A stretch of DNA of 64,000 nt from Daphnia pulex (Eukaryota > Arthropoda > Branchiopoda > Diplostraca > Daphniidae), in NCBI RefSeq assembly GCF_021134715.1, contig NC_060018.1, positions 12,169,501 through 12,233,500 on the forward strand, in the 5' to 3' direction. Positions 33,721-62,642 of the stretch are shown piece by piece. Position 1 is the first letter of the stretch, and each line of letters begins with the position of its first letter. The notes beneath the pieces were generated by a model, which did not search any database, was not told the DNA's origin, and saw nothing but the letters and a program-made list of their open reading frames with translations. A program made the translations under genes and the position numbers.

Positions 33721-34815
33721 TTGCAGCAGCAGCAGCAGTTACAACAACAGCAGCAACACATTCACGTAAGTGTAAAGGAGGAACAGATTTCCAACCTGTT
33801 GGAATTTTTCATCTATAATTTTTCTTTGTTGTTGTTGTTGTTGTTGATGGGCGTGGCCGAACCGACAGGTGTTGGATGAGAAACCCATGGTGGTTTGCGG
33901 CACCGCCAACGGAGGTGTTGGCAACGGGTTGGCCGTCAAACCCCTCAGTCCCGAGCAGGAGGAGCTCATCAATCGGCTCGTCTATTTCCAGGAAGAATTT
34001 GATCAACCGTCCGAAGAGGATCTGAGAAAAATTTCCGTAAGATTTTTCTTTTTATCAAATTTTATTTTTCTTTCCAAAAAATTAAAATTTCCGATTTTTT
34101 TACTTTTATTGCAGACGTCGGGCATTCACGAATCGGACGCCGACGCCAAATTCAAACACATAACGGAAATGACGATCCTGACTGTGCAGCTGACGGTCGA
34201 GTTTTCCAAGCGGCTGCCGGGCTTCGACACGCTCCTGCGCGAGGATCAGATCACGTTGCTCAAGGCGTGCTCGAGCGAGGTGATGATGCTGCGCTGCGCC
34301 CGACGCTACGACGCCAACACGGACTCGATCGTTTTCGCCAACAACCTGCCCTACACGCGCGAGTCGTACAACATGGCCGGCGTCGGAGACACGGCCGAGC
34401 CGCTCTTCCGCTTCGGCAAGAGCATGTCGCAGATGAAAGTCGACAATGCCGAGTACGCCCTTCTCACGGCCATCGTCATCTTCTCTGGTGAGAAATTTGA
34501 ATTTTTTTTGAAATTTTCAAATTTTTCCCGCCTTTTTTATTTAAAATTTAAATTTGAAAATTTATTTGAATAGAACGACCGGGATTGGTGGAGGCGAGAA
34601 AAGTGGAAAAGATTCAGGAGATTTACCTCGAAGCGCTTCAGGCTTACGTGATGAACCACCGGGTGCGGCCGATGACGGAATTCGCAAAGCTCCTGTCGGT
34701 GCTAACCGAGTTGCGCACGCTCGGCAACCTCAACTCTGAGATGTGCTTTTCTCTCAAGCTCAAAAACAAGAAACTGCCGCCCTTCCTCGCCGAAATCTGG
34801 GACGTTCATTCGTGA
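21724..34815 (+). CDS. EcR: Ecdysone receptor, B-like long isoform
   Basis: EcR is the nuclear receptor for 20-hydroxyecdysone. It heterodimerises with RXR/USP and drives moulting and development. An acceptor at 21722-21723 opens the exon with the start codon at 21958. Coding exons are 21958-22289, 22573-23132, 32725-32907, 32972-33112, 33545-33765, 33869-34036, 34115-34487 and 34574-34815, giving about 739 residues. The N-terminal A/B region is low complexity (Gln, Ser, Asn and His runs) and contains IIKTEP, which fits the SUMO consensus. The two zinc fingers begin at [14 protein letters not shown] near residue 337, with P-box EGCKG split by an intron and a second finger reading [21 protein letters not shown] poly-Gln hinge follows. 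The ligand-binding domain includes the hallmark stretches [17 protein letters not shown] and [11 protein letters not shown]. The protein stops at EIWDVHS, so the F domain is almost absent. Calling the isoform B rests on contrast with the A-type exon. Confidence 0.93.
23133..31242. other. Large EcR intron containing the presumed EcR-A promoter
   Basis: AT-rich sequence with many microsatellites, including GT at 23319-23337, CA at 23421-23434 and GT/CA tracts near 30085-30180 and 30665. The frames here are short and low in complexity. The last 450 bases before 31243 are the best place for the EcR-A 5' UTR. I see no separate gene. Confidence 0.5.
30811..30816 (+). promoter_or_regulatory. Candidate initiator for the EcR-A transcript
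   Basis: A TCAGTC hexamer fits the arthropod initiator consensus and lies about 430 bases upstream of the EcR-A start codon. There is no clear TATA box at -30. The motif is short, so this is only a candidate. Confidence 0.2.
31243..34815 (+). CDS. EcR: Ecdysone receptor, A-type isoform
   Basis: This is an alternative first coding exon (31243-31843) of the same receptor. It ends in phase 1 at TCAACTTCAG and splices to the shared exon at 32725, exactly as the B-like exon does, giving about 642 residues. Its A/B region is rich in Ser, Gln and His. Near residue 155 it carries [13 protein letters not shown], which closely matches the A-box that marks EcR-A in insects. From 32725 onward the protein is identical to the B-like form. 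The about 8-kb gap between the two N-terminal exons suggests a separate promoter for this isoform. The fit of the A-box and the splice phase makes this call strong; the transcription start is not shown. Confidence 0.9.
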
Positions 34816-40781: not shown

Positions 40782-42400
40782 CTTCTCGAATGCCATATTC
40801 TAGACCGACCGTACAATCGGAAGTCCAAATGATATGCCATTGAGAGTCTTTTGTAATACTCTGAATGTTTGCTTTCAGCTTTGAAAATGTCTTCATTGGA
40901 CAAGCTAAAACTTTTAAGTATTTGTTCCTTCTGCAAACGGTAAAGAATAACTTTGTGGACATGCATTTATTATTACCTACCTAATTCTCTTCCACATGTT
41001 TTGTATAGTTTGATCCCCTTCCTGATGTACTTTATTTCTCATGATATTTGTTCGATTAGTCTTGTGTTTTTTTCGTTTGTTTTTTAAATTTTGTATTCAA
41101 TTGACAAGTTTAAAATTAGATTAAATTGTAGAAAATTAAGGGTAATATTTCTTCCTTCCAAATAATTGTTTCCGTTCAAAGATAGCCACATTGTTGGTCA
41201 ACTTCCACAGTTTTTTTTTAATTTTCTTCCAGTCAATCTTGAACGAAAATTCCCACTCAGTATTGTATTACCAAGTATTTATAACATATTGAAAGTAGAT
41301 GCTAGATGTACAATTGTACATAATTCTTTCCTCGTTTCTTTTTCAATTTAAATTAATTATTAATTTTAAATTAAGTAAATTTTATTATCGGTACCCTTTT
41401 ACACATTTCAAAACGTAATTGATTCATTAATGTTCTTTTCCTTTTAGGAGTTCATCGTCGGTATGATGTCTGAGCTGTTTATGGTGTTGCTGTTTGGTGT
41501 CCAGTGGTTTTGAAGTTGAGGTTTGTTGAGGTAATGCTTGATGTTTCGTTCAGTTATTGACTTTTAATTAAGATCTATATTCTTTTTTTCAGTTTAATCG
41601 TTTGCTGCCGTTCCATAGACTTGATCCATTGGTAAAACTGAGGAGAGGTTGCTGAAATTCAAGACTCGTCAATAAATTATGTAGATGTAGACAAATTACA
41701 AGTGCATATCTGGGCTCCCTTCTTCAGTGGCCCCGTTTCCCTAAATAACCACTAACCAACGCCCGCCGGTGGTCACTCACTCGCTGCCGAAAGCCTACTA
41801 TGATGCATTGCTCTCTTAAAAACTGTTCCTCGGCCCTCTTCGCTCTTTTTCCGGTTTCTCTTAACCATGGCCGGGTAATCAGGTAATCTCCCTGGTAAAG
41901 TCAGTCGGGCAGTGTCTCCCCCTGCTTGACTGGCTGCAGTTTGAACCGGACGGTCTGTTAAAATAAGAATTTAAATCGAGAACAACGCCTCCTTTGAGCG
42001 GCCCGGACAATCCTGAAACCTTTAGGGTTGCCATTTCGTCGAGGCTTAAACGAGGGTAAGTAATTACACGTTAGTCAAATTGCTAAAGCTACTGATTCAA
42101 TTGTTTGTATTACCCAGATGACGCGGAGGTGTTTCCTATTGAGGGGTTTTGGTGACCAGGAGTCACTGAACGAAACGCTAAACCAAATGAAAAAAAAAAA
42201 CATTAAAAAAGGTAGGCCCCTAATGCTAGATACGACATGAAGCTTTTGCTTTTGCAGAAAATAATGTGAATTTGTTTGCAGCCAACGATCCTTTACTATA
42301 TCCGAGCCGAGTCCTTTCCGTCTACGTTCGGTGTGAAGAGCAAAACCCGAATTTCAACACATTTTACTGCTTAGCAATGAAAACAAAGCGAGTGTCAAAA

Positions 42401-43103
42401 CATTGTTTTATTTGCGCATACTTTATTGTGGCAGAAACGCGTTGGTCATGTAACAGGGTGAAATTTTTTCCCCTTTTGTTCATGCAGCATCAAACGCAGT
42501 GATGTGCACGTCATACGGTGACTTATTCGAAAATTTGACGTTACGTCGTACGTTACGTCAATTTTCCTTGTTTTTGAAGTTTACGGTGACTTCTACGTAA
42601 GTGAAAAAAAAATACTGACTTTTTACGTATACTTTTGACGTGTAAAAAAGTCCAGTTATGAGTTTACCGTAAAAGTCAAAAAACAATTTTAAAAATTTGG
42701 CAACATTTGCTTTGCGAAAATTCGTCTGCCATTTTAAATTTATTAAATTTTAATTCTTCTAAAAATAGCCCTCCATGTTTAATTTTCATTCTTATTTTTT
42801 CCAAATGCAATCTGTGTATATTATGGGCAATAGCAATAAATAATGTAATGATGTATATGTGACGTAACGTCATACGTTTGAAGTATGAAAAAATTTACGT
42901 TACGTTGACGTTTTTTTTTTGACTTATTACGTAGTACTTTTAAAATACGTATGACTTCTACGTTTTTTTGGTACGTCAACAAATCCCGTTGACGTGCACA
43001 TCACTTGCATTGTTTTATTTGCGCATACTTTATTGTGGCAGAAACGCGTTGGTCATGTAACAGGGTGAAATTTTTTTCCCTTTTGTTCATACAGCATCAA
43101 ACG
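42401..43103. repeat. 96-bp direct duplication flanking a MITE
   Basis: The sequence at 42401-42496 recurs at 43008-43103 with a few changes, and the MITE lies exactly between the two copies. The right arm has a single copy. The duplication is far too long for an ordinary target-site duplication of a DNA transposon. Confidence 0.8.
42497..43007. mobile_element. hAT-like MITE, present only in the left arm
   Basis: This is a 511-bp element with inverted ends: CAGTGATGTGCACGTCA on the left and a near-perfect complement ending CACATCACTTG on the right. The interior is filled with ACGT-containing words and has no coding frame. The CAGTG start resembles hAT termini; the family is a guess. No 8-bp target duplication is visible because the flanks are a longer repeat. 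Confidence 0.65.
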
Positions 43104-43767
43104 ACACGCGATAGTTCTGGCGGTAATCAACTATTCAAGATGGTAGACCTGTCAATGTAAAAGACAGGGTAAGGGTAGCTCCTGTAAATGTTATTCATTA
43201 TTGTTAAATAGCTGCTAGTAGGAGCTCATTGTTGATTTGCGGTTACAAAATGCATAGCCCTAGAGTTCAGGTATTGTCAATCAATCATTTGATTTGCGTT
43301 TTAGATACTCCTAAATCAGTTGTGGAAATACGATTCCCCCTGCTTCTCCTGGGTGGTTATTTAGGATCATTTAAGTTCATTTTTGAGTTATGCGTTGTGA
43401 ACGTAGCGGACGAACTCTGACAGTCTATCGAGCTTTAGCAATTGCGTCTAATTTCTTATTTTATTGATTTTATTCATTTTATTCAACCGTTTTATGAGAA
43501 GCTTTGATTTGTATTTTTTTATATTAATAATTTACCTTGTTTATCTTTTTTTTTTAGATTTTCTTCTCCGACTGCAGGTGCAAGGATTATGTGTTTGAAA
43601 CTTAGAAAAGTTTGCAGTAGAATATTTAAAAAAAAAAGCCGACTGTCTTTCAAACGGTTCGAAATGGAAGATTTATTCATTCACCGAAGAAACGAGTCAA
43701 ATGACTCAAATGTCAAATGTGGTATTTTTAAAGTGACTAAAATTTAAGCCATTATCATTTATGATTT

Positions 43768-44162
43768 GATATTTATTTTGATATTGGTTTTTGTAGACCC
43801 ATCCCCAGCAACGTTAACCTGCAGAAAGAAAAAGGCCGGTTTCTATGACCTTGACGCTCGAAGGTCACGGAGATCATTACGTAAAACGTGTCATGCAGTA
43901 GTGTAGAGGTTGGGTGAGAATGACACGTGTTGCTTCATAATCAAAAAGGTACAATAGCCGCAAGTGTAAGCTATTTGGTATTCATTTTGATATTGGTTAT
44001 TGTAGACCCATCCCCGGCAAAGTCACCTGCAGAAGGAAAGGCCAGTTTGCATTTCAATCGAAGATCATGGAGATCATTACGTAAAAGGTGTCAGGCATAG
44101 TGTAGAGGTTGGGTGAGAACGGGACGTTTTGCTTCATTATCAAAAAGGTAAAATAGCCATTA
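43768..44162 (+). repeat. Two tandem copies of an about 200-bp unit (left arm)
   Basis: Two units start near 43768 and 43977. They share the blocks TTTTGATATTGGTT, TAGACCCATCCCC, GGAGATCATTACGTAAAA and TAGAGGTTGGGTGAGAA. The second unit leads directly into the TATA box at 44192, so these may be duplicated upstream regulatory blocks of the tyrosine-rich gene. The mirror copy is at about 60616-61010. Confidence 0.75.
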
Positions 44163-44191
44163 GGCTTAAGAGGAGGGGTGAGAAAAAATTG

Positions 44192-44227
44192 TATAAAAGG
44201 CGAGAGAAAATTTGACAGGGATCAGTC
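44192..44227 (+). promoter_or_regulatory. TATA box plus initiator of tyrosine-rich gene copy 1 (left arm)
   Basis: TATAAAAG at 44192-44199 is followed by TCAGTC at 44222-44227. The predicted start base (A at 44224) is 32 bases downstream of the first T of the TATA box, which is canonical spacing. The corresponding block ahead of copy 2 has lost the TATA word (it reads TCAAAAGG). Confidence 0.7.
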
Positions 44228-44287
44228 GAGTGAGCATCTCCGACACGGCAACAACTCCATATTTCGTCGTAATATCAGTTCGCAATC

Positions 44288-44650
44288 ATGGGTAAATGTT
44301 CATTTTTATTTCGAGTCGTAAATCTATTCTATCTTGTTATTAGTTCTTGATACGACTAAGTTACCTTCGAAAAATAATTTCCCATTGTTTATTGCATAGT
44401 TAATTATGGCATTGTGTTGCTGTTGGGTGTTGTATCGTTGATGTCGACCACGAGAGAAAATCTTTCAAAAGGAAAGAGAAAAGGCAACAGAAGTCAATCG
44501 AGTGAGCATCTCCGACCCGGCAACAACTGCATTCTTCGTCGTATTACCAGGTCGCAATCACGGGTAAATAATCTGTATTTATACATGGAATGTTGTATCA
44601 ATTTCCATTTTTTCTATTTGATAATGTGTCCGTTAATGTTGAATATTTAA
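44288..44650 (+). pseudogene. Tyrosine-rich secreted protein gene, copy 1 (left arm), truncated
   Basis: Exon 1 ends at 44291, just after the start codon (ATGG then gtaaat). Exon 2 starts at 44400 and encodes a good signal peptide (MVNYGIVLLLGVVSLMS). After STTREN the frame does not enter the tyrosine-rich repeats but runs into the decayed promoter and 5' UTR of copy 2, ending at 44650 as an about 83-residue chimera. It has the only intact start codon and promoter of the three copies. It could be a small secreted peptide, but a deletion remnant is more likely. Confidence 0.6.
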
Positions 44651-45090
44651 TATTGTCTAGTTAACTATGCCGTCACGCTGCTATTTGTTGTTGTATCGTC
44701 GATGGCTGGGTCGACCACTGGTGTACCGACGTCTCCTGGATAAGGCGGATACCAAACCGCAACGCCACCGCCTTCTACACAACAACATACGCAATGACCA
44801 GATACTACACCGAGGTTGCACTGTTGGGTTTACAGTTAAACCACCAAGGATCGAGATTATTACACCACAACTTGTGCTGCTCCTCGAGGTACTACACCGA
44901 GGCACCTACTGAGACTACGCAACTACGTATGCTGCCCCAACCTACGACACCGAGGCTCCAGCTTATTACATCACCAAAGCTGTCGAATTCTACACTGGAT
45001 CGCCAAAGTACAACAGAAATCAGTCAAGTAAGCTTGACGACAACACGACACGAGCGACACCCAACACGGCAACCCCGAAGTTTCGAATAA
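44480..45090 (+). pseudogene. Tyrosine-rich secreted protein gene, copy 2 (left arm), degenerate
   Basis: The 5' UTR block GAGTGAGCATCTCCGAC recurs here, but the start codon has become ACG (near 44560). Exon 2 keeps a signal-peptide-like stretch and GVPTSPG, followed immediately by TAA in place of the tyrosine codon seen in copy 3 (PGYGGYQ). Beyond that, words for YYTE-type repeats survive in shifting frames. The promoter TATA word is also lost. This copy cannot make the protein. Confidence 0.75.
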
Positions 45091-45204
45091 ACTTCGTTTC
45101 AAACAGTGTAACGGCAAAAAGTGAAGGTGAGTTCTTTATTATTGTAATTTTGTGCAACATGTACTAATGACTTGTTTTCGTTCCTTGTCTGTCTTTCGAA
45201 CAAG

Positions 45205-46163
45205 ACGAATTCGACTGCAATCGCGTCGAATTGAATAGCAAAGATAACATATTCGTACGTGTACACCGCGCCGTTAAACTTGACATTGTCGGTCTGCAAG
45301 CCGCACTTGACGACAAGTGCGTTATTGCCACAGGTAAACATTTTATGCCAAGCGAAATTTGTCTTTAAAAGTCTCAATGATAACACCTTTACGGAATGTT
45401 GAATAAATTTGATAATCTTCCTGCTCGATAGTATCTAAGAGTCTATTTAAACTGCTAGCAATTTATTTCTGTGAATTAGTTCTACGAATTCCTCTAAAAA
45501 TGGCCTTTATTTTCTTGTTAGGTGTTAAACGAAAATCTTTTTCAATCCCTGAGCGGTGCCCTTAAAGATGCCCACGAGCACGTAGCGCTGTTCCGCAACA
45601 TTGATGGCGGTAACATAGGTCGAGTTCTCCGTTCTCCTAAATATTTGAGCCAATGGACAACCGAGAAGGTGAAAGCGGAAAGTGTTAATGGTTTGCTCAA
45701 AGCTAATGTGGAGGGTGCAATTTTCGAAGACTACAAGGTCGCATTGACCTTAAACGATGGTCAAAAGGTAAACAGTTATTTCAGTACATGTTTTAGCGAT
45801 GTTAATTAAAATCTAAAAATTATTTCAGCAGATTTAAACTGACAATGTCGTCGCTGCTGTCGGTTGGTTGGGACGCAAACACGGATTTGGCTGTTGCTTT
45901 TGGTTTGGAAATAAAGGAGAGGAGATTTTGGTGGTTATCGAGTGAATACCGAGCTTGAAGCACGATCGAACGTTTGGTTGGTAAGAATCCTTGAACATTT
46001 TATTTCATATAAATTGTACTACTGTGATATTTTTATTAGGCTGGAGATGTTACGTTCTTTTGTGATATCAAATTGGGTCGCTGTTGTATGGAACATGATC
46101 ACCATGCTGTTGTATCAGGGCGATTGGCTGGAGAGAACAATACTGGCAAAGAAACATGGATGA
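45205..46163 (+). pseudogene. AIF (apoptosis-inducing factor)-like pseudogene (left arm)
   Basis: AIFM1 is a mitochondrial FAD flavoprotein. Four AIF-like exons keep their introns: 45205-45333 (ends KCVIAT), 45522-45768 (NIGRVLRSPKYLSQWTTEKV, then VALTLNDGQK), 45832-45980 (DNVVAAVG, then NTELEARSNVWL) and 46040 to about 46160 ([17 protein letters not shown]). The order and motifs match the middle of AIFM1. It is broken: a TAA at 45835-45837 replaces the Glu codon of VETD, there is a frameshift after GLEI, the GGGFLG NAD-binding loop is missing, and both termini are absent. The 3' end fuses directly to the 5' block of tyrosine-rich copy 3. Retained introns argue for DNA-level duplication rather than retroposition. 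Confidence 0.85.
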
Positions 46164-46319
46164 AAAACTGCAGTGCACTGTTACCGAGTGCATTCTTCGT
46201 CGTATTATCAGTACGCAATCGGGTAAATATTCTGTTTCACGGAGTTTGTATAAATTATTTGTATTTTATCTGTTTATGTACCATATTGAATATTAATGTT
46301 CAAATTATTTGCTGAATAG

Positions 46320-47188
46320 TTGATTGTGATTTCGTGATGTCGCCGTTTGCCGTATCATTGAAGGCTGGGTCGATCACTGGTGTACCGATGTCTCCTGGGT
46401 ATGGCGGATACCAAAGCACCACGCCGCCGCCTTGCTACACAACGACAACATTCGCAAGAACCAGTTACTACACTGAGGCACACTATTACTACACCACCAA
46501 GGCTCCAGAGTATTACACCGAAGCTGATGCTGCCCCGAGTTACAACATCAAACGTACTACACCGAAGCTCCCAAGTACTAAAACCACCAAGTCACCGGAG
46601 TATTACACGTATGTTGCCCCAGCTTGCTGCACCGAGGCTCCCAAGTATTACCTAGTTCCTAGCTACTACACCGAGGCTCCAACTTATTACACCACCAAAG
46701 CGGCTGAATACTACACCGAGCCGCCCAAGTACTACACCAACAAGGCTCCCACCACAACTTGTGCTTCCCCGAACCTCTACACCGAAGCCCCGAAGTATTA
46801 CTCTGCCCTAAGCTACACAACTACAACTGAGGCGGCCAAGTACTACGCAGCCCCAACTTACTACACAGCGGCTGCTCCTTCGTACTACGTTGAATCGGAA
46901 TACTACACCTAGGCTTCAGTTTACTACACCACAACCTACGCTACACCTAGCTACTACACCGAGGCCCCTATGTACTACACTACCAAGGCACCTGAGTATT
47001 ATAACGCTATTTACGCTGCTCCGACCAACTACACCGAAGCTCCGAAGTATTACTCCATCCCGAGTTACTACACCACTAAGGCACCTGAATATTACACCAC
47101 ACCCTACGCTTCTCCAACTTACTACAGGGACGCTCCTAAATATTATAACTATGTTCAGATTTGTCGGTCATATCTTAATAGTTACTAA
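46320..47188 (+). pseudogene. Tyrosine-rich repeat secreted protein gene, copy 3 (left arm)
   Basis: Exon 2 starts at 46320 after an acceptor. A frame of about 290 codons is built on repeats such as YYTTKAPEYYTEA and APKYYSIPSYYTTKAPEYYT, the style of secreted tyrosine-rich matrix or adhesive proteins. The family is one I recall from Daphnia, without a proven function. One in-frame TAG at 46910-46912 interrupts it (repeat context suggests GAG or CAG originally). The frame then stays open to the stop at 47188. The first-exon start codon is deleted (GCAATCGGG instead of GCAATCATGG) and the signal peptide is eroded. A shorter product could start at 46337, but a pseudogene is more likely. Confidence 0.75.
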
Positions 47189-47742
47189 TCACTGGGAATT
47201 GTTGATCTTTAATAGGGAAATAATTTTTTTTTAACCTGGGTAATCATTGTGTACGACTTTTTGCCACCTAAAAGCCTTAAGTCATTGCGACGTTTTCTTA
47301 TTTTGGTTGGGTCTTTCCTATTTCGCATGTTAGAGGTGACTATTGCTCTAGTCGCTCCGCATTCCGACACATTCTAGTGTTTGGACGAACTTCATTTACA
47401 GGGCAAGTTACGAAAGAGACGTACTTTGTGGTGTTCTAAAATTGTTTGATGTTAACAGCTCTCTTTTTAACTTAAGTTGGCGTAACAAAAGAGTTGCAGA
47501 TAGTGTGTGGTTCATCATAGAAGTTTTATTTGAAGAATCTGAAGTTGATCAATCGCGTGCCTATAACTTATGTAAAACTTAAGTTGTAAAAAATATACAA
47601 GTCGTGAACTAAACATTTTTTGTATTACAAATTATGCATGCGACATAGCAAACACAAACATTAAAAGGAATTGCTTTTTGTAGTCCCACCTCCACCCACA
47701 ATTCCACCACATTTTAAAATCACATACATACATACACTTAAG

Positions 47743-48061
47743 TTAACCCGTTGGCTGCCACGCCATACAACCCGTAGGTTGCTCTCTACTACTCTACGCG
47801 CCACGTCTGAAGGATCTATGACCAAGGTGGAACTTGCCATTGCTGACAAGTCCGGGCTGACACGGTGACAGAAGAATCCATCACCGCATCGACAAGGGGG
47901 AACTAGGGTAGTATGGTGCATTGCCTAACAGGCGCCTTGCGGCAAGTTTTGGGCTGGTGCGACTTTCCGACCCCTCGGCATGAAAACCACGAGACCGAAC
48001 AGCGCACGCAGCCCGTGCTAAGGAGCAGGGGAAAACAAAGGCGTGGCAACCAACAGGTTAA
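47743..48061. mobile_element. piggyBac-like MITE (left arm)
   Basis: An element of about 310 bp is bounded by TTAA on both sides (47743-47746 and 48058-48061). Its inverted termini read CCCGTTGGCTGCCACGCC and, from the other end, CCTGTTGGTTGCCACGCC. The TTAA target site and the CCC start are hallmarks of piggyBac-type elements. There is no transposase. An 86-codon frame that crosses the MITE edge is incidental. Confidence 0.8.
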
Positions 48062-48323
48062 TTAACACTAACACATATTACCAACAACAAATAATGATCC
48101 ACGCTGACACTTTGGAGATACCGGCGATGTTTTGGTGTCAATCTTCTCGACGTCTCCTCTGCATTACCTGAATAAAGAGAAAACAAATTCTTACTAAGTG
48201 AAATGCCAATAAAAGTTACATAATACATATAGGTACATTGATCTGTTATTTTTGGCTCAAAACTTTAAAGGCGCGCTTTAAATTGCTTAAAATCTTGCTA
48301 ACAATATTGAAAACTGTACACAT

Positions 48324-48709
48324 AACAAAGCTCACTTGCTAGTCTTTAAAAAAAATCCGGAAGTAAACCGGAAGTAGCCACAGCGCCTCAACCATTGAGC
48401 TGTCGTCAAATTAAACCACATATTCGTGATCTCCATGAAATTTGGGGTCGATTAGGTGTGATTTAAACGAAATCCAAAATTTTGCCAAAATCGAGAATTT
48501 TCCTGAACTATAGTTCAGGAAAATTTTCAAAGCCGGAAGTACGAAAACGTACAAAACGAAACATGAACTTTACCACAAATTCGACGAGGATCACGAATAT
48601 GTGGTTCTTTTGTGCGTCAGATGAATATTTACTGAACTACTGACTAAAAAGAGTAAACCGGAAGTAGAAAAAAAAGCAATTATCGAAAATTTAACAAGTG
48701 AGCTTTGTT
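48324..48709. mobile_element. Foldback/MITE-like element (left arm)
   Basis: The element begins AACAAAGCTCACTTG and ends CAAGTGAGCTTTGTT. It carries CCGGAAGTA words near both ends and CACATATTCGTGATC with its complement inside. A perfect 30-bp palindrome (48496-48525) sits at its centre, so the strand can fold on itself almost completely. It has no coding frame and the family is unknown. Confidence 0.7.
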
Positions 48710-48844
48710 GGGGGAATAATAATCGTCAGTAATCACTAAATATTTCAACAAAATAACTGTCGATAAATGTTTAAAGAGATGTTCAAAGTAACAGAAACTG
48801 ACTGTTTTGACAGCTGTTTAGACTGCAAATTATCAAAAAGCCAT

Positions 48845-49572
48845 CTAGCGTTGGAAAAAAGAAGCGTCCAAGTAAACTTTGTTTGAGCGCAAGAAGGGCC
48901 TAATTTTGGAAACTATTACACAGACACTGTTTAACGCAAAATTGGTATATAACCTAAGAAAATAAGTCAATTGTTGGATACCTAGGCATAATCCCGTGGT
49001 GAGTGACTGCAGGTGTTTAACAGCAAAGGGGTAGCGACCACTGAAGTGTTCTAACTCGTCAGTGAAGTAAGACAAGTTGTAGCAGCAAAAGCAGTGAAGC
49101 TAGATGAGTGTACGTCGGGAAGATAAGGATGGAGCAGTACGTTGCTGAATGTCCCTCTTCCGTCATGAACAAAGGTCAGCATTGGCTTATTAGGATCTTT
49201 TATGCGCTCTGTAAAAAAAAATTTATTGCATTAATGAATTGAAAATATAACAGTTAATATAGCATTTCCATCTTTACCTATACTAACAAGCATACTGAAG
49301 TTTTCATGACAAAAAACCGCAAAAATGGAAATCACAGCAACCAACAGGTTTACTCCTGAGGTTGATGTAAATTTCCTGATGCCAAAGAAAGTGTCATGAA
49401 GTGTTGCAGTAGTATGGTGATAGGTGGTATTGATGCTTACCTTTATCATATGGGTGAATGGTGCTGAATTTAGTATTAGTAAGGCATTAGACGTGGTGTG
49501 GTTGTTGTGGTAGCAGTAATGGGGAAATACCTTGTCCCCGCACATTTGTATTCCACAATATGTGAGCTTCAC
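48845..49572 (-). pseudogene. Unidentified two-exon gene fragment at the inner end of the left arm
   Basis: On the minus strand, exon A (49572-49278) encodes a hydrophobic segment (GVNLLVAVISIFAVF) after a Thr/His-rich stretch. It splices (donor at 49277, acceptor at 49210-49209) to exon B from 49208, which continues in frame with RIKDPNKPMLTFVHDGR and LLHPYLPDVHSSSFTAF. A small indel then shifts the frame to LSYFTDELEHF, ending at 48845. The gene is not recognised. One membrane segment is likely. The diverged right-arm homologue keeps the exon B frame, so the left copy is broken. Confidence 0.45.
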
Positions 49573-49850
49573 ACATGAGTTTTAGGCTTTTGACAACATG
49601 ATGGGTCTGTTGGATGGAAAGTGACTGAGCGCTAAGTCAACTTTTTAGAATGACTGACAGTATATGCATCTAAAATTTGAAGATATAAGTTGGTATAGTA
49701 TAAAAATAAGTAAATTAGGTCAAGTTAAACCTACACAAGTTACGAAGTTCAATTTGGTATATGAAATCACAGGAATATAAGTATTAATTCGCATCCAATT
49801 TCCCGTAGGGATTCTGTACAGGTTTTTTGGTATACGGGAGGCACACGGAT

Positions 49851-49949
49851 GATTAGTTCGAAATTTCCCCAATAGATAGGATTAGTTCGAAATTTCCCCA
49901 ATAGATGTTTGCACACACGGAGGATTAGTTCGAAATTTCACCAATAGAT
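49851..49949. repeat. Short tandem repeat beside the left arm
   Basis: Three copies of a 27-bp unit (GATTAGTTCGAAATTTC, then CCAATAGAT) lie at about 49851, 49881 and 49923. Confidence 0.75.
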
Positions 49950-50263
49950 GGCGTTTGTACGTAGAAAATGGAAAACGGTTTGAACTGCGCGCCTAAAAGA
50001 ATTAGAATGTATAGAGAAAGGAGATCGACCGCTGGTTCAGTATGACCTGATTAACCTATTGAATATTTATTTACCCCATAGATGGCTTATTTACTTGCAC
50101 GCCTGAAATATAATTTGCTGTCGTATCAATAACGACTGTTTCAACTTTGAAGAAAGGCTCGATCCTTTTGGAGGTGAATCAATAGGCTATTGCAGTTTTG
50201 TTTTGTTTTTTTCAGTCTTGCCTGTCATGTTCCATTATCTTCTGAAGAGGATCGCGAAAAAAA

Positions 50264-53200: not shown

Positions 53201-53710
53201 CAACCCATGCAGCATTCACAGGCAGCAGCAAATCGAAATCGCCAAAAGGTGTATGCAGCACACAATTCACTGGGAAAAGCTCAAATATGGTTTACCGTGA
53301 GTCCCGACGACACTCAATCATTCAAGATCGTTGTGAACGCACTGGGATCTCAAGCAGTTAATTTCGAAAATCCCGTTCCAACAGGGGAAAAGCGATTCAA
53401 ACTGTTGGCCAAACATCCCGTTGCAGCTGCCCTTCATTTTCAACGCATTTTGAAGATGGTTATAAAAAAAGTCTTGGGTTGGAATCGAAGCCAGCTATTG
53501 CCATACAGATCGGGAGGTGTGTTTGGTGTTCCTAAAGGTTACCTGTATCTCGTTGAAGAACAATCGAGGCTCACACTGCACGCTCATTTTCTTATATGGC
53601 TTTACGGCCATGAGAATATAGAACGACAACTGCTCCGCGCGTCTAGACTGGACGAAGAAGAACGCAAAGCGAATGATGTATCCCACAACATGCACGAATT
53701 ATTCCAGGTT
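50264..53710 (+). CDS. Helitron transposon protein, truncated within the Rep domain
   Basis: This is the replication initiator of a rolling-circle transposon. The model has seven exons: 50264-50293, 50571-50684, 50752-50826, 50891-50962, 51023-51247, 51309-52608 and 52674-53710, in frame for about 951 codons. Exon 6 holds a Cys-containing N-terminal domain (CAVCDEMF, IPKFAIAHGNYIGQLPE, then RSLIRPI), in the style of the DUF6570 region I associate with Helitrons. Exon 7 starts with ELHYPDLFPFGCGGFGE and the Helitron_like_N domain. It includes GKAQIWFTVSPDD, HPVAAALHFQRILK, and the HUH motif in RLTLHAHFLIWL. The reading ends at HELFQ before a donor. No later exon with the catalytic tyrosines or the helicase is found before the right arm at 54699. 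Exons 3, 4 and the end of 5 are duplicates of one another. The fragment is probably immobile, or its 3' half has been lost. Confidence 0.8.
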
Positions 53711-53804
53711 AATTTCCTTAATTTTTATTTCTAATTTTTTTTGCATCCAAAAGACAAAAAGATCATAATTACTATAATACTATTTCAAGTAAAAATATCA
53801 AAAT

Positions 53805-54215
53805 AACTTAAACGAAAAACGAAGCGTAAGAGCCTAAGAGGGGGTGGGGGTTGGTGCAAGGGTTGTTGGGTGTTGTGGTTTGGTTTGTTCTAACTGTTTA
53901 TAGATTTTTCTTTAACTATAACTAATTATTTTTTATTTCATATTGCTTATGAAAATAATAAATTTTGTTGTAACTTAAGGTAAAAAGAGAGTGCGACGTG
54001 GGGTGGCGGGGCGAAGCCTCCGCCACACCTAAGTCGCACCCCTAATGATTCACAGATATTTTTTTATGTTCCGATAGGCCTATGTTTGATTGATACTATT
54101 TAATGTAAATGTATAACGGTAATTTAAGCGATTAACGAAGCGCGAAGGGGGGGAGGGCGGGGGTTGGCGGGCGAAGCCCGCCACCCCCGTCCCCCCCCCC
54201 CCCTCCTGATTCACC
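53805..54215. repeat. GC-rich hairpin repeats downstream of the Helitron gene
   Basis: Related units near 53809-53860, 53991-54055 and 54131-54215 share ACGAAGCG, GGGGGTTGG and a final TGATTCAC. The second folds with outer stem GTGCGAC/GTCGCAC (53991-53997 and 54033-54039) and an inner stem topped by GGCGAAGCC. The third folds as GGCGGGC, loop GAA, GCCCGCC. CTAA followed by T at 54042-54046 sits just after the second hairpin, the layout of a Helitron 3' end. Confidence 0.6.
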
Positions 54216-54350
54216 ATACCGATAGATTCATGTAATTAATTTTGAATTTCATGTTTACTTTACTTTTGCTTTTTTAAATTTTTAATTGATATTATTTCCT
54301 ACGGGAACCTCGCAAACCGGAACGGGATGCCAGCATTGTCTCACCCATTT

Positions 54351-54660
54351 TGCCTCGTTTCACGATGTAAAAACAACAAGGGCGACACTAGCGACATCTG
54401 GTAATGAGTTTTGAATCCTAATTTGGTTGCAATATTATTAAAGATACCCGACAATAGAACTCCACCGACAATAGAACCCCAATATTTTATTTTTTAAAAA
54501 ATACCCGACAATAGAACTCCAGTGCTCGACAGTAGAACTCCACTACGAGACACGGAGACAGTAGAACTCCGATAATTTGAGCTACGACTGTACAACCAAC
54601 TTAGGATTCAAAACTCAAGATGTCGCCAGTGTCGCCTTTGTTGTTGTTACAAACGAGGCG
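54351..54660. mobile_element. Inverted-repeat element with internal pogo/Tigger-like words
   Basis: Arms of about 70 bp (54351-54429 and 54593-54660) are reverse complements with some mismatches. Both read as TGAGTTTTGAATCCTAA with GACATCT and CGACAC nearby. Between them, the word CGACAATAGAACTCCA or close variants recurs about five times, ending in a stretch resembling pogo/Tigger termini. There is no transposase. The family is tentative. Confidence 0.5.
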
Positions 54661-55558
54661 AAGCCGAAAAGGGCGAAACAAAACTGTAGCTAATTTATAC
54701 TTATATTCCTGTGATTTCAATTACCAAATTGAATTTCGTATCATATGTAGGTTTATCTTGACCTAGTTTCCTTATTTTTATACTGTACTAACTTATTTCT
54801 TCAAATTCTAGTCTTCTAGATGCATACTGTCAGTGTCAGTCATTCCAACAAGTTGACTTAGCGCTCAGTCAATTTCCATCCATTAGGCCCATCATGCTCT
54901 TTGACAAAGCCTAAAACTCATGTTTGAAGATCACATGTAGTGGAATACAAATCTGCCAAGATAAGGTATTTCCCCATTACTGCTACCAGACCATTACAAT
55001 TCAGATTTTCTTATTATTTATTACATAGGTTTCCTGAACCATAAGACTTTTCTGAATCTTGCAATTTTTGTGGCACACCCTGCAACAGCATGATTTTTGT
55101 TATGGATGTTTTTACTTCTCTTTAGAAGGCAACCCAGCTTAGAAATAGGTACAGTTTTATTTCTCATGGGTAAATTTATGTCAATTTATAAGTAACATAG
55201 AGAATTTCCTTGTCCCATTGCCACTTTCAGTTTCAGAGACATGAAGCGTGTGAAGTGAATAACCTGCCATGTGTATGCACATGTACCGGATCTGCTTGAT
55301 GAAAGTCAAATGCCTTACTAAATTCATCACCCATATGATAAGGTAAGCATCAATACCACCTATCACCATGTTACTGAAATACTTCATGACACTTTCTTTA
55401 GCATCAGGAAATTTATCTCAACATGTGGAATAATGCTGTTTTTTGCTGTGAATTCAATTTTTACAGTTTTTCATCATGAGCATTTCTGTGTGCTTATTAA
55501 AAAAAAGGTAAAGATTGATATGCTTCATTCATTGTTATATTTTCAATAATGAAAAAAT

Positions 55559-55930
55559 TTGTTTTTACAGAGCACGGAGATTCTTGTGCCAATACTGACC
55601 TTTGTCCATGACGGAAGAAGGACTATCAACAACATTCTTCTCCATCCTTATCTTCGCGACGCACGCTCATCTAGCTTCACTGCTTTTGAACAAGATTTGT
55701 TTTACTTCACTGGCGACTTAGCGAGTTTCTGGACCACTTCAAGATCGCTTCCGTCCGCTGTTACACACCTGCAGTCCACGGGATTATGCCTAGGTATCCA
55801 ACAATTGACTTATTTTCTTAGGTTATATACCAATTTTGCGTTAAACAGTGTCTGTGTAATAGTTTCCAAAATTAGGCCCTTCTTGCGCTCAAACAAAGTT
55901 TACTTGGACGCTTCTTTTTTCCAACGCTAG
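55559..55930 (+). pseudogene. Unidentified gene fragment at the inner end of the right arm
   Basis: This is the diverged homologue of 48845-49208. After an acceptor (ttttacag) it encodes PILTFVHDGRRT, then LLHPYLRDARSSSFTAF and FYFTGDLASFW, and stays open to 55930. From about 55790 onward it is nearly identical to the left arm. The equivalent of left exon A is riddled with stops. It may be a last exon of a gene, but the protein family is unknown to me. Confidence 0.4.
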
Positions 55931-56065
55931 ATGGCTTTTTGATAATTTGCAGTCTAAACAGCTGTCAAAACAGTCAGTTTCTGTTACTTTGAACATCTCT
56001 TTAAACATTTATCGACAGTTATTTTGTTGAAATATTTAGTGATTACTGACGATTATTATTCCCCC

Positions 56066-56454
56066 AACAAAGCTCACTTGTTAAATTTTCGATAATTGCT
56101 TTTTTTTTCTACTTCCGGTTTACTCTTTTTAGTCAGTAGTTCAGTAAATATTCATCTGACGCACAAAAGAACCACATATTCGTGATCCTCGTCGAATTTG
56201 TGGTAAAGTTCATGTTTCGTTTTGTACGTTTTCGTACTTCCGGCTTTGAAAATTTTCCTGAACTATAGTTCAGGAAAATTCTCGATTTTGGCAAAATTTT
56301 GGATTTCGTTTAAATCACACCTAATCGACCCCAAATTTCATGGAGATCACGAATATGTGGTTTAATTTGACGACAGCTCAATGGTTGAGGCGCTGTGGCT
56401 ACTTCCGGTTTACTTCCGGATTTTTTTTAAAGACTAGCAAGTGAGCTTTGTTAT
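56066..56454. mobile_element. Foldback/MITE-like element (right arm)
   Basis: Mirror of 48324-48709. It differs by one T in a homopolymer. Confidence 0.7.
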
Positions 56455-56716
56455 GTGTACAGTTTTCAATATTGTTAGCAAGATTTTAAGCAATTTAAAG
56501 CGCGCCTTTAAAGTTTTGAGCCAAAAATAACAGATCAATGTACCTATATGTATTATGTAACTTTTATTGGCATTTCACTTAGTAAGAATATTTGTTTTCT
56601 CTTTATTCAGGTAATGCAGAGGAGACGTCGAGAAGATTGACACCAAAACATCGCCGGTATCTCCAAAGTGTCAGCGTGGATCATTATTTGTTGTTGGTAA
56701 TATGTGTTAGTGTTAA

Positions 56717-57035
56717 TTAACCTGTTGGTTGCCACGCCTTTGTTTTCCCCTGCTCCTTAGCACGGGCTGCGTGCGCTGTTCGGTCTCGTGGTTTTCATGC
56801 CGAGGGGTCGGAAAGTCGCACCAGCCCAAAACTTGCCGCAAGGCGCCTGTTAGGCAATGCACCATACTACCCTAGTTCCCCCTTGTCGATGCGGTGATGG
56901 ATTCTTCTGTCACCGTGTCAGCCCGGACTTGTCAGCAATGGCAAGTTCCACCTTGGTCATAGATCCTTCAGACGTGGCGCGTAGAGTAGTAGAGAGCAAC
57001 CTACGGGTTGTATGGCGTGGCAGCCAACGGGTTAA
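56717..57035. mobile_element. piggyBac-like MITE (right arm)
   Basis: Mirror of 47743-48061 with both TTAA sites intact. Confidence 0.8.
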
Positions 57036-57589
57036 CTTAAGTGTATGTATGTATGTGATTTTAAAATGTGGTGGAATTGTGGGTGGAGGTGGGACTACAA
57101 AAAGCAATTCCTTTTAATGTTTGTGTTTGCTATGTCGCATGCATAATTTGTAATACAAAAAATGTTTAGTTCACGACTTGTATATTTTTTACAACTTAAG
57201 TTTTACATAAGTTATAGGCACGCGATTGATCAACTTCAGATTCTTCAAATAAAACTTCTATGATGAACCACACACTATCTGCAACTCTTTTGTTACGCCA
57301 ACTTAAGTTAAAAAGAGAGCTGTTAACATCAAACAATTTTAGAACACCACAAAGTACGTCTCTTTCGTAACTTGCCCTGTAAATGAAGTTCGTCCAAACA
57401 CTAGAATGTGTCGGAATGCGGAGCGACTAGAGCAATAGTCACCTCTAACATGCGAAATAGGAAAGACCCAACCAAAATAAGAAAACGTCGCAATGACTTA
57501 AGGCTTTTAGGTGGCAAAAAGTCGTACACAATGATTACCCAGGTTAAAAAAAAATTATTTCCCTATTAAAGATCAACAATTCCCAGTGA

Positions 57590-58458
57590 TTAGTAACTAT
57601 TAAGATATGACCGACAAATCTGAACATAGTTATAATATTTAGGAGCGTCCCTGTAGTAAGTTGGAGAAGCGTAGGGTGTGGTGTAATATTCAGGTGCCTT
57701 AGTGGTGTAGTAACTCGGGATGGAGTAATACTTCGGAGCTTCGGTGTAGTTGGTCGGAGCAGCGTAAATAGCGTTATAATACTCAGGTGCCTTGGTAGTG
57801 TAGTACATAGGGGCCTCGGTGTAGTAGCTAGGTGTAGCGTAGGTTGTGGTGTAGTAAACTGAAGCCTAGGTGTAGTATTCCGATTCAACGTAGTACGAAG
57901 GAGCAGCCGCTGTGTAGTAAGTTGGGGCTGCGTAGTACTTGGCCGCCTCAGTTGTAGTTGTGTAGCTTAGGGCAGAGTAATACTTCGGGGCTTCGGTGTA
58001 GAGGTTCGGGGAAGCACAAGTTGTGGTGGGAGCCTTGTTGGTGTAGTACTTGGGCGGCTCGGTGTAGTATTCAGCCGCTTTGGTGGTGTAATAAGTTGGA
58101 GCCTCGGTGTAGTAGCTAGGAACTAGGTAATACTTGGGAGCCTCGGTGCAGCAAGCTGGGGCAACATACGTGTAATACTCCGGTGACTTGGTGGTTTTAG
58201 TACTTGGGAGCTTCGGTGTAGTACGTTTGATGTTGTAACTCGGGGCAGCATCAGCTTCGGTGTAATACTCTGGAGCCTTGGTGGTGTAGTAATAGTGTGC
58301 CTCAGTGTAGTAACTGGTTCTTGCGAATGTTGTCGTTGTGTAGCAAGGCGGCGGCGTGGTGCTTTGGTATCCGCCATACCCAGGAGACATCGGTACACCA
58401 GTGATCGACCCAGCCTTCAATGATACGGCAAACGGCGACATCACGAAATCACAATCAA
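57590..58458 (-). pseudogene. Tyrosine-rich repeat secreted protein gene, copy 3 (right arm)
   Basis: Mirror of 46320-47188, including the same in-frame TAG (57868-57866) and the same missing start codon. Confidence 0.75.
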
Positions 58459-58614
58459 CTATTCAGCAAATAATTTGAACATTAATATTCAATATGGTAC
58501 ATAAACAGATAAAATACAAATAATTTATACAAACTCCGTGAAACAGAATATTTACCCGATTGCGTACTGATAATACGACGAAGAATGCACTCGGTAACAG
58601 TGCACTGCAGTTTT

Positions 58615-59573
58615 TCATCCATGTTTCTTTGCCAGTATTGTTCTCTCCAGCCAATCGCCCTGATACAACAGCATGGTGATCATGTTCCATACAACAGCGA
58701 CCCAATTTGATATCACAAAAGAACGTAACATCTCCAGCCTAATAAAAATATCACAGTAGTACAATTTATATGAAATAAAATGTTCAAGGATTCTTACCAA
58801 CCAAACGTTCGATCGTGCTTCAAGCTCGGTATTCACTCGATAACCACCAAAATCTCCTCTCCTTTATTTCCAAACCAAAAGCAACAGCCAAATCCGTGTT
58901 TGCGTCCCAACCAACCGACAGCAGCGACGACATTGTCAGTTTAAATCTGCTGAAATAATTTTTAGATTTTAATTAACATCGCTAAAACATGTACTGAAAT
59001 AACTGTTTACCTTTTGACCATCGTTTAAGGTCAATGCGACCTTGTAGTCTTCGAAAATTGCACCCTCCACATTAGCTTTGAGCAAACCATTAACACTTTC
59101 CGCTTTCACCTTCTCGGTTGTCCATTGGCTCAAATATTTAGGAGAACGGAGAACTCGACCTATGTTACCGCCATCAATGTTGCGGAACAGCGCTACGTGC
59201 TCGTGGGCATCTTTAAGGGCACCGCTCAGGGATTGAAAAAGATTTTCGTTTAACACCTAACAAGAAAATAAAGGCCATTTTTAGAGGAATTCGTAGAACT
59301 AATTCACAGAAATAAATTGCTAGCAGTTTAAATAGACTCTTAGATACTATCGAGCAGGAAGATTATCAAATTTATTCAACATTCCGTAAAGGTGTTATCA
59401 TTGAGACTTTTAAAGACAAATTTCGCTTGGCATAAAATGTTTACCTGTGGCAATAACGCACTTGTCGTCAAGTGCGGCTTGCAGACCGACAATGTCAAGT
59501 TTAACGGCGCGGTGTACACGTACGAATATGTTATCTTTGCTATTCAATTCGACGCGATTGCAGTCGAATTCGT
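58615..59573 (-). pseudogene. AIF (apoptosis-inducing factor)-like pseudogene (right arm)
   Basis: Mirror of 45205-46163 with identical exon frames and the same stop and frameshift. The damage therefore predates the inverted duplication or has been copied between the arms. Confidence 0.85.
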
Positions 59574-59687
59574 CTTGTTCGAAAGACAGACAAGGAACGA
59601 AAACAAGTCATTAGTACATGTTGCACAAAATTACAATAATAAAGAACTCACCTTCACTTTTTGCCGTTACACTGTTTGAAACGAAGT

Positions 59688-60298
59688 TTATTCGAAACTT
59701 CGGGGTTGCCGTGTTGGGTGTCGCTCGTGTCGTGTTGTCGTCAAGCTTACTTGACTGATTTCTGTTGTACTTTGGCGATCCAGTGTAGAATTCGACAGCT
59801 TTGGTGATGTAATAAGCTGGAGCCTCGGTGTCGTAGGTTGGGGCAGCATACGTAGTTGCGTAGTCTCAGTAGGTGCCTCGGTGTAGTACCTCGAGGAGCA
59901 GCACAAGTTGTGGTGTAATAATCTCGATCCTTGGTGGTTTAACTGTAAACCCAACAGTGCAACCTCGGTGTAGTATCTGGTCATTGCGTATGTTGTTGTG
60001 TAGAAGGCGGTGGCGTTGCGGTTTGGTATCCGCCTTATCCAGGAGACGTCGGTACACCAGTGGTCGACCCAGCCATCGACGATACAACAACAAATAGCAG
60101 CGTGACGGCATAGTTAACTAGACAATATTAAATATTCAACATTAACGGACACATTATCAAATAGAAAAAATGGAAATTGATACAACATTCCATGTATAAA
60201 TACAGATTATTTACCCGTGATTGCGACCTGGTAATACGACGAAGAATGCAGTTGTTGCCGGGTCGGAGATGCTCACTCGATTGACTTCTGTTGCCTTT
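59688..60298 (-). pseudogene. Tyrosine-rich secreted protein gene, copy 2 (right arm), degenerate
   Basis: Mirror of 44480-45090, with the same lost start codon and the same internal stop. Confidence 0.75.
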
Positions 60299-60490
60299 TC
60301 TCTTTCCTTTTGAAAGATTTTCTCTCGTGGTCGACATCAACGATACAACACCCAACAGCAACACAATGCCATAATTAACTATGCAATAAACAATGGGAAA
60401 TTATTTTTCGAAGGTAACTTAGTCGTATCAAGAACTAATAACAAGATAGAATAGATTTACGACTCGAAATAAAAATGAACATTTACCCAT
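60128..60490 (-). pseudogene. Tyrosine-rich secreted protein gene, copy 1 (right arm), truncated
   Basis: Mirror of 44288-44650 with the same frame and length. Exon 1 ends at 60487 and exon 2 starts at 60378. Confidence 0.6.
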
Positions 60491-60550
60491 GATTGCGAAC
60501 TGATATTACGACGAAATATGGAGTTGTTGCCGTGTCGGAGATGCTCACTC

Positions 60551-60586
60551 GACTGATCCCTGTCAAATTTTCTCTCGCCTTTTATA
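60551..60586 (-). promoter_or_regulatory. TATA box plus initiator of tyrosine-rich gene copy 1 (right arm)
   Basis: Exact mirror of 44192-44227, with the TATA box at 60586-60579 and the initiator at 60556-60551. Confidence 0.7.
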
Positions 60587-60615
60587 CAATTTTTTCTCAC
60601 CCCTCCTCTTAAGCC

Positions 60616-61010
60616 TAATGGCTATTTTACCTTTTTGATAATGAAGCAAAACGTCCCGTTCTCACCCAACCTCTACACTATGCCTGACACCTTTTACGTA
60701 ATGATCTCCATGACCTTCGATTGAAATGCAAACTGGCCTTTCCTTCTGCAGGTGACTTTGCCGGGGATGGGTCTACAATAACCAATATCAAAATGAATAC
60801 CAAATAGCTTACACTTGCGGCTATTGTACCTTTTTGATTATGAAGCAACACGTGTCATTCTCACCCAACCTCTACACTACTGCATGACACGTTTTACGTA
60901 ATGATCTCCGTGACCTTCGAGCGTCAAGGTCATAGAAACCGGCCTTTTTCTTTCTGCAGGTTAACGTTGCTGGGGATGGGTCTACAAAAACCAATATCAA
61001 AATAAATATC
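60616..61010 (-). repeat. Two tandem copies of an about 200-bp unit (right arm)
   Basis: Mirror of 43768-44162, again directly upstream, in the minus-strand sense, of the copy 1 promoter. Confidence 0.75.
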
Positions 61011-62136
61011 AAATCATAAATGATAATGGCTTAAATTTTAGTCACTTTAAAAATACCACATTTGACATTTGAGTCATTTGACTCGTTTCTTCGGTGAATG
61101 AATAAATCTTCCATTTCGAACCGTTTGAAAGACAGTCGGCTTTTTTTTTTAAATATTCTACTGCAAACTTTTCTAAGTTTCAAACACATAATCCTTGCAC
61201 CTGCAGTCGGAGAAGAAAATCTAAAAAAAAAAGATAAACAAGGTAAATTATTAATATAAAAAAATACAAATCAAAGCTTCTCATAAAACGGTTGAATAAA
61301 ATGAATAAAATCAATAAAATAAGAAATTAGACGCAATTGCTAAAGCTCGATAGACTGTCAGAGTTCGTCCGCTACGTTCACAACGCATAACTCAAAAATG
61401 AACTTAAATGATCCTAAATAACCACCCAGGAGAAGCAGGGGGAATCGTATTTCCACAACTGATTTAGGAGTATCTAAAACGCAAATCAAATGATTGATTG
61501 ACAATACCTGAACTCTAGGGCTATGCATTTTGTAACCGCAAATCAACAATGAGCTCCTACTAGCAGCTATTTAACAATAATGAATAACATTTACAGGAGC
61601 TACCCTTACCCTGTCTTTTACATTGACAGGTCTACCATCTTGAATAGTTGATTACCGCCAGAACTATCGCGTGTCGTTTGATGCTGTATGAACAAAAGGG
61701 AAAAAAATTTCACCCTGTTACATGACCAACGCGTTTCTGCCACAATAAAGTATGCGCAAATAAAACAATGTTTTGACACTCGCTTTGTTTTCATTGCTAA
61801 GCAGTAAAATGTGTTGAAATTCGGGTTTTGCTCTTCACACCGAACGTAGACGGAAAGGACTCGGCTCGGATATAGTAAAGGATCGTTGGCTGCAAACAAA
61901 TTCACATTATTTTCTGCAAAAGCAAAAGCTTCATGTCGTATCTAGCATTAGGGGCCTACCTTTTTTAATGTTTTTTTTTTTCATTTGGTTTAGCGTTTCG
62001 TTCAGTGACTCCTGGTCACCAAAACCCCTCAATAGGAAACACCTCCGCGTCATCTGGGTAATACAAACAATTGAATCAGTAGCTTTAGCAATTTGACTAA
62101 CGTGTAATTACTTACCCTCGTTTAAGCCTCGACGAA

Positions 62137-62439
62137 ATGGCAACCCTAAAGGTTTCAGGATTGTCCGGGCCGCTCAAAGGAGGCGTTGTTCTCGATTTAA
62201 ATTCTTATTTTAACAGACCGTCCGGTTCAAACTGCAGCCAGTCAAGCAGGGGGAGACACTGCCCGACTGACTTTACCAGGGAGATTACCCGGCCATGGTT
62301 AAGAGAAACCGGAAAAAGAGCAAAGAGAGACGAGGAACAGTTTTTAAGAGAGCAATGCATCATAGTAGGCTTTCGGCAGCGAGTGAGTGACCACCGGCGG
62401 GCGTTGGTTAGTGGTTATTTAGGGAAACGGGGCCACTGA
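62137..62439 (+). CDS. Possible 100-residue open frame at the outer end of the right arm
   Basis: A frame from ATG at 62137 (MATLKVSGLSGPLKGG) runs to TGA at 62437-62439 with many Arg and Lys residues and no domain I know. The left-arm counterpart starts at 42034 on the minus strand and is put out of frame by an 8-bp tandem duplication. Coding status is doubtful; it could be a first exon or chance. Confidence 0.2.
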   Translation: MATLKVSGLSGPLKGGVVLDLNSYFNRPSGSNCSQSSRGRHCPTDFTREITRPWLRETGKRAKRDEEQFLREQCIIVGFRQRVSDHRRALVSGYLGKRGH

Positions 62440-62642
62440 AGAAGGGAGCCCAGATATGCACTTGTAATTTGTCTACATCTACATAATTTATTGACGAGTC
62501 TTGAATTTCAGCAACCTCTCCTCAGTTTTGCCAATGGATCGAGTCTATGGAACGGCAGCAAACGATTAAACTGAAAAAAGAATAGAGATCTTAATTAAAA
62601 GTCAATAACTGAACGAAACATCAAGCATTAGGCCTACCTCAA

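Follow-up and report, generated by a model that had tools for sequence, protein, structure and literature searches.

A near-perfect palindrome of about 21 kb in Daphnia pulex belongs to a dispersed family of palindromes, each an inverted, convergent gene pair, whose members probably share a common ancestor. It lies in a stretch of 64,000 nucleotides, hereafter the window (NCBI RefSeq assembly GCF_021134715.1, contig NC_060018.1; C2:12169501-12233500, where C-numbers denote contigs), and its relatives were sought in the whole genome of 133,188,837 bases in 13 contigs. The examined members would descend from one palindrome with a small inverted repeat at its centre. Recombination, either gene conversion or repeated long copying from arm to arm, would have kept the body of every palindrome near-identical, and this homogenisation would end where the arms were already too different, in the inner 0.8-1.1 kb. 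A crossover between arms would have flipped the centre in at least one lineage. The Helitron/Helentron-like element in the centre of the window copy is a later insertion.

The palindrome and its relatives across the genome

The palindrome and its two arms of about 8 kb, proposed in a first-pass annotation, were confirmed by self-BLAST of the window, with the left arm (41532-49800) matching the reverse complement of the right arm (54335-62630). On the minus strand, 43008-49475 aligns with 61770-55316 (6,486 columns, 98.2% identity, 49 gap columns) and an outer piece, 41532-42496, with 62630-61675 (965 columns, 98.2%), while the inward continuation is weaker (49508-49792 against 54988-54689, 83.4%). 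The inverted arms are thus more than 97% alike, and an inverted match of 6.5 kb at 98% cannot be chance. Read base by base, the tract 41875-48998 holds one substitution (44064), two short indels (48186 and 48667) and one 511-bp insert, in line with the earlier remark that indels were almost absent over 6 kb. From 48999 inward, arm identity falls sharply to about 82-87% over the innermost 0.8 kb of the left arm. The spacer measures 5.8 kb between the long BLAST blocks; the 4.9 kb first given for it holds between the diverged inner ends.

This plan recurs at many loci, most of which were judged by search scores alone. At the DNA level, inverted arms were found at C11:3.4995-3.512 Mb (96.2% over 4.8 kb), C2:5.038-5.055 Mb (98.9% over 5.3 kb compared), C5:0.346-0.359 Mb (C5b; 99.95% over 5.75 kb compared) and C5:0.476-0.502 Mb (C5c; 98.5% over 8.0 kb), together with a truncated inverted pair at C5:0.086-0.089 Mb (C5a; 89%). 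A 1.1-kb query from the arm body returned 59 matches, and once 19 shorter pieces had been set aside, the remaining 40 primary matches formed 14 adjacent pairs, every one of them convergent (14/14). At the protein level, the best 150 of 214 matches to the Tyr/Thr/Pro-repeat protein were listed and merged to 124, and members less than 20 kb apart were counted as adjacent. Among these listed matches, 32 of the 36 adjacent pairs were convergent, two divergent and two tandem (P 1e-15 against one quarter). Both members had identical scores in 24 of the 32 convergent pairs, one coinciding score occurred among the 54 unpaired matches, and the amino-acid identity of loci to the query fell as low as about 50%. 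As a control, 150 of the 331 candidates for cuticle family PF00379 were scored and gave 79 adjacent pairs, of which 64 were tandem, eight convergent and seven divergent. The convergent pairs are spread over at least seven contigs. With 14 pairs at the DNA level and at least 32 at the protein level, the locus is not singular, and a single special locus is ruled out.

The centre of the palindrome is also widespread. A 1.1-kb centre sequence was placed at no fewer than 39 distinct loci (from 48 of 115 places; by eye, the remainder overlap the same loci). When 40 of 398 centre candidates were scored against the convergent pairs, a centre lay between the members in 14 of the 32 pairs, and in nine of those 14 it stood at 0.48-0.52 of the distance. 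Centres off the middle were those of the window (0.69), C5c (0.79), C11 (0.59), C2:5.04 (0.41) and C6 (0.32); in the window and C5c they are off the middle because an insert displaces them. Outer boundaries differ between loci. The right arm of the window stops at 62630, the left flank at 41058-41515 is shared with outer arms elsewhere, and C5b has a second type of outer flank at either end, which C2:5.04 has on its right side.

Arm bodies, inner ends and the centre flip

We compared the arms in a body alignment (a 1.4-1.5-kb piece, 15 rows), in the innermost ~300 bp (segment p) and in the next segment outward (segment q). In the body, arms of the same palindrome are mutually nearest at 99.9-100% (window, C5c, C11, C5b and C2:5.04), and identity between these five palindromes is 94.0-96.7%. 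Other close body pairs are the single arm at C5:0.29 with C5b (99.9%) and C2:4.65 with C2:5.04 (98.1-98.2%). Body trees that join the five left arms in one clade were rejected (p-AU, approximately unbiased test, 1e-9), as were those joining the left arms of C11 and C5c (5e-66). The inner ends conflict with this picture. In segment p, left ends (window, C11, C5c, C5b and C5:0.29) are 94-97% alike, with C5b and C5:0.29 at 99.6%, and right ends are at least 96% alike, whereas left and right within one palindrome are 87-88% alike. Joining both sides of one palindrome was rejected in segment p (window, 1.9e-4; C11, 1.2e-5; C5c, 3.8e-8) and in segment q (window, 1e-91; C11, 2e-59; C5c, 3e-49).

Divergence between loci is similar in the body and at the inner ends, so both arms predate the separation of the loci, and homogenisation of the bodies came afterwards at each locus separately. 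In this set of paralogous loci from one genome, the arms are closer within a palindrome than to their counterpart arms, though the palindrome is older. The edge of the near-identical tract points the same way. It lies at 48999 in the window, at C5:483464 and at C11:3503834, the same place to within some 20 bp as judged by eye from the alignment, which fits conversion halting at an inherited heterology. The arm-to-arm gene conversion suspected in the first-pass annotation is thus indicated both by the tree conflict and by the sharp edge.

Segment q further revealed two types whose sides are swapped relative to segment p. Type X comprises the window left, the right sides of C5c, C11 and C5a, and C2:1.94; type Y comprises the window right, the left sides of C5c, C11 and C5a, together with C5b and C5:0.29. 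Since the left ends of the window, C11 and C5c group together in segment p, X is joined to the left type in the window and C2:1.94, and Y is joined to it in C5c and C11. The swap would be accounted for most simply if the innermost centre had been inverted, which is what a crossover between inverted arms should produce. The best explanation of these alignments appears to be that the palindromes are older than the identity of their arms, with arm-to-arm gene conversion and at least one centre flip. What we infer rather than observe is germ-line gene conversion as the form of recombination, its continuing activity, and the manner in which the family spread.

The Helitron-like insert and other features of the arms

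The first-pass annotation placed a Helitron gene at the heart of the structure. Such a gene is indeed present in the spacer, with DUF6570 and Helitron_like_N domains, but the 4.53-kb element that carries it is a later insert into the centre of this palindrome copy. At six other loci (C5:353216, mirror 351790; C5:492937; C5:296210; C5:87709; C2:1946429; C11:3506230) the site is empty: the sequence matching window 49476-49800 is joined straight to that at 54335 and reads CATCCAATT-GTTTC.CCC, a junction that 4.53 kb of DNA interrupts in the window. Because the uninterrupted centre is present at these six loci, the insert is late, and a structure centred on the Helitron is ruled out. The true centre is instead the small inverted repeat just right of the insert, seen in self-BLAST as 54366-54429 against 54651-54593. 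It is not a lone miniature inverted-repeat transposable element (MITE), although it may have begun as one, since its flanks are conserved alongside it at many loci, hence its assignment as the palindrome centre.

A second copy of the insert lies at C7:11736265-11743403 (98.9% and 99.6% identity). This C7 copy has 2.6 kb extra (C7:11740568-11743173) at the place matching window 54104/54106, either through a nested insertion on C7 or through a deletion from the window copy. The window insert has the ends TTCCCGTAGG...GCCAGCAT, with a possible T|T target and no clear duplication past a shared ATT, and carries an inverted copy of its first ten bases about 28 bp before its 3' end. The canonical Helitron ends (5' TC and 3' CTRR, as defined in the available portion of PMC4067079) are absent. 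A T-rich target that is not duplicated and a 5' end that recurs inverted near the 3' end, here found on one of several readings of the shared ATT, are traits of Helentron/Helitron2 elements, which in the same partial source also share Helitron_like_N with the insert; unlike them, the insert has no helicase in the two large open reading frames (ORFs) scanned. By these traits the insert resembles Helentron/Helitron2 more than a canonical Helitron. Short copies of the 3' end of the element (about 560 bp, shorter on C4) were found at C8:5522391, C3:4779943, C10:14105229, C8:3785081 and C4:2989989; these look like non-autonomous relatives, and four of the five have pieces of the 5' end nearby.

Table 1. 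Positions of the palindrome, its genes and its inserts within the window
Feature	Position	Strand	Remarks
Left outer flank	41058..41515	+	Outside the palindrome; homologous to outer arms at other loci; missing on the right side
Left arm	41532..49800	+	Homogenised tract 41875-48998; diverged inner end 48999-49800
MITE-like insert, 511 bp	42497..43007	.	Left arm only, between 96-bp direct repeats
Gene A, upstream paralogue, left arm	44528..45164	+	From self-BLAST and frames
Gene B, Tyr/Thr/Pro-repeat frame, left arm	46316..47185	+	In-frame stop at 46910-46912
Helitron/Helentron-like insert	49801..54334	+	End bases ambiguous by 1-3 (shared ATT)
Insert ORF with DUF6570	51264..52613	+	E 2.3e-20
Insert ORF with Helitron_like_N (Rep-type) domain	52613..53731	+	E 8.7e-17
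Right arm with centre	54335..62630	-	Homogenised tract ~55781-62283; diverged inner end ~54681-55780; limits read off alignments
Small inverted repeat, true centre	54338..54680	.	Ends GTTTC.CCC / GGG.GAAAC; kept with its flanks at other loci
Gene B copy, right arm	57593..58462	-	Identical stop at 57866-57868
Gene A copy, right arm	59614..60250	-	From self-BLAST and frames

The Tyr/Thr/Pro-repeat frames point inward in both arms, as the first reading of the window had it, and this convergent arrangement proved general in the family. Genes A and B are 71% alike over 44528-44896 / 46189-46547, and copies of gene B at other loci end or shift frame at different places. No credible named domain was found by Pfam in the eight ORFs from the arms or the arm-spacer edge among the 10 scanned (matches at E 0.044-0.14 were disregarded); a signal-like start, read by eye, suggests that the repeat proteins are perhaps secreted. 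No Rfam structured-RNA family matched between 41000 and 63000, a result without bearing on hairpin RNA. Purifying selection is ruled out as the source of arm identity, because the identity extends equally over non-coding DNA and broken frames. The ratio of nonsynonymous to synonymous divergence (dN/dS) between gene copies was 0.57-0.94; values of 0.23-0.32 against C2p1289, obtained at dS >1.4, were taken as saturated and not counted.

The 511-bp block that separates the two BLAST pieces is flanked by direct repeats of 96 bp (42401-42496 and 43008-43103, 97.9%), much longer than a usual target duplication. By eye its ends read CAGTGATGTGCACGTCA / TGACGTGCACATCACTTG, and the right arm has one 96-bp copy at this site, without the insert. 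Other palindromes carry inserts of their own: 1.6 kb in the inner end of C11 (C11:3504530-3506129), itself containing inverted repeats of about 0.5 kb that are 73% identical, and about 8.7 kb in the left arm of C5c, close to its inner end (C5:483897-492615). Two divergent repeat-protein matches 54 kb apart (C6:114271-114812 and C6:168513-169033) have an identical score of 106.3 and perhaps belong to a larger inverted duplication. Elsewhere in the window, frames at 571-3228 and 33848-34573 resemble by eye a receptor with seven helices and the ligand domain of a nuclear receptor.

Alternative explanations and significance

Several observations weigh against ancestral palindromes homogenised by conversion. 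A single long copying event per locus would mimic conversion, and the support is drawn from the assembly of one genome. The ends of C5a (C5:0.087) are 94.5% alike and both of the right type in segment p. Both halves of C5b are of the right type and match each other at 99.95%. The single arm at C5:0.29 (C5:286965-296940) is in turn 99.9% like C5b (C5:346172-351925), 55 kb away; recent duplication therefore also occurs. Homogenisation is not universal: among the 14 pairs from the body query, five have equal scores, five differ by 4-8 bits and four by 12-240 bits (C7:1.618, C7:1.519, C2:5.04 and C7:1.317). Finally, 18 of the 32 convergent pairs had no centre match between them among the 40 of 398 candidates scored.

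Such recent doubling raises the question of whether each locus arose by an independent inverted duplication, in which one arm and the centre were folded back on the small inverted repeat and copied, with no older palindrome to convert. Short inverted repeats are a known kind of seed for fold-back copying, and one sits at the centre here; outer boundaries vary between loci, and C5:0.35 appears freshly doubled. However, the left and right sides of segments p and q are common across loci and the same inner edge is found at three loci, which suggests that both arms were present before the loci separated, and we regard independent duplications as unlikely. The occurrence of one architecture over at least seven contigs might also recall a large mobile element with terminal inverted repeats, whose arms would be identical from each insertion. 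This seems more doubtful still: the eight arm ORFs scanned, of many, include no transposase-like domain, no consistent outer ends or target duplication were seen at C5c, and the inner ends are much more diverged than the bodies.

The convergent arms might instead give rise to long double-stranded RNA and thereby silence either the inserted element or the family itself, a function that would preserve the palindromes. The window offers about 7 kb of near-perfect complementarity, and 32 of the 36 adjacent pairs are convergent, but this bias is equally expected from one convergent ancestor and the Helitron-like insert is late, missing from the six empty sites; we hold such a function to be very improbable. 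An assembly artefact, through a folded read or a mis-joined haplotype, is the least probable of all. The arms are more alike than many alleles, as such an error would have it, yet the inner ends diverge by 13-18%, an insert is private to one of the arms, the 4.5-kb element is unique to this centre, and the plan recurs at many loci with insert positions differing. These comparisons weaken the concern without closing it.

Descent from a shared palindrome, with arm-to-arm conversion, would place the Daphnia loci beside several known systems. Converting palindromes are known from the mammalian X and Y and a willow sex chromosome (PMC8981503, PMC7023750, PMC3403216); as far as the available portions of these papers describe them, they too have large inverted arms of near-perfect identity, a spacer, arm genes, and arms closer to each other than to related copies elsewhere. 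The Daphnia palindromes differ, within the same limits, in that a single gene family forms them at many loci, on ordinary contigs and with arms of 5-9 kb. To our knowledge Daphnia has no sex chromosomes, and the spread of the convergent pairs counts against location on one special chromosome. Thomas (2006, Genetics) reportedly described inverted gene pairs in Caenorhabditis that evolve in concert and encode small secreted proteins of odd composition. The Daphnia pairs are similarly inverted, adjacent and oddly composed, with perhaps secreted products and concerted evolution; they would differ from the pairs so reported in that homogenisation extends over long tracts and takes in non-coding DNA, that the palindrome centre is conserved and flips, and that the loci number in the tens.

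Palindromes have also been described in Adineta vaga and Folsomia candida (PMC7953838, PMC5490193), which, in the accessible text of these papers, are likewise inverted duplicate gene blocks in invertebrates with parthenogenesis. For Folsomia candida the authors judged, in that text, that concerted evolution was not the explanation, whereas it does appear to explain the palindromes of D. pulex. A palindrome screen of 23 parthenogen genomes omitted D. pulex, according to the part of PMC7953838 available. No Daphnia palindromes were recognised in a literature search conducted largely without full texts, and no paper was found for four short words of the repeat peptide. In our judgement, what is new is the occurrence of conversion palindromes at multiple loci in a species not known to have sex chromosomes; conversion palindromes themselves were already known.

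The usual explanation for large converting palindromes is that a sex chromosome without recombination needs a means of repairing itself. Tens of them on ordinary chromosomes would separate conversion from the sex-chromosome context, with built-in controls: diverged inner ends adjoin identical bodies, and the edge between the two is shared. Mutation-accumulation lines of a classic model animal could then be used to measure the conversion rate, the tract edges and the centre flips. A practical warning also follows, in that short-read variant calls, copy numbers and expression estimates are unreliable for the Tyr/Thr/Pro-repeat gene family. More tentatively, the self-homogenising, centre-flipping palindromic pair may itself be the unit of inheritance and spread, at dozens of loci in a cyclical parthenogen without sex chromosomes; arm-to-arm conversion would then be a genome-wide way of evolving one gene superfamily, and not a remedy for non-recombining chromosomes.

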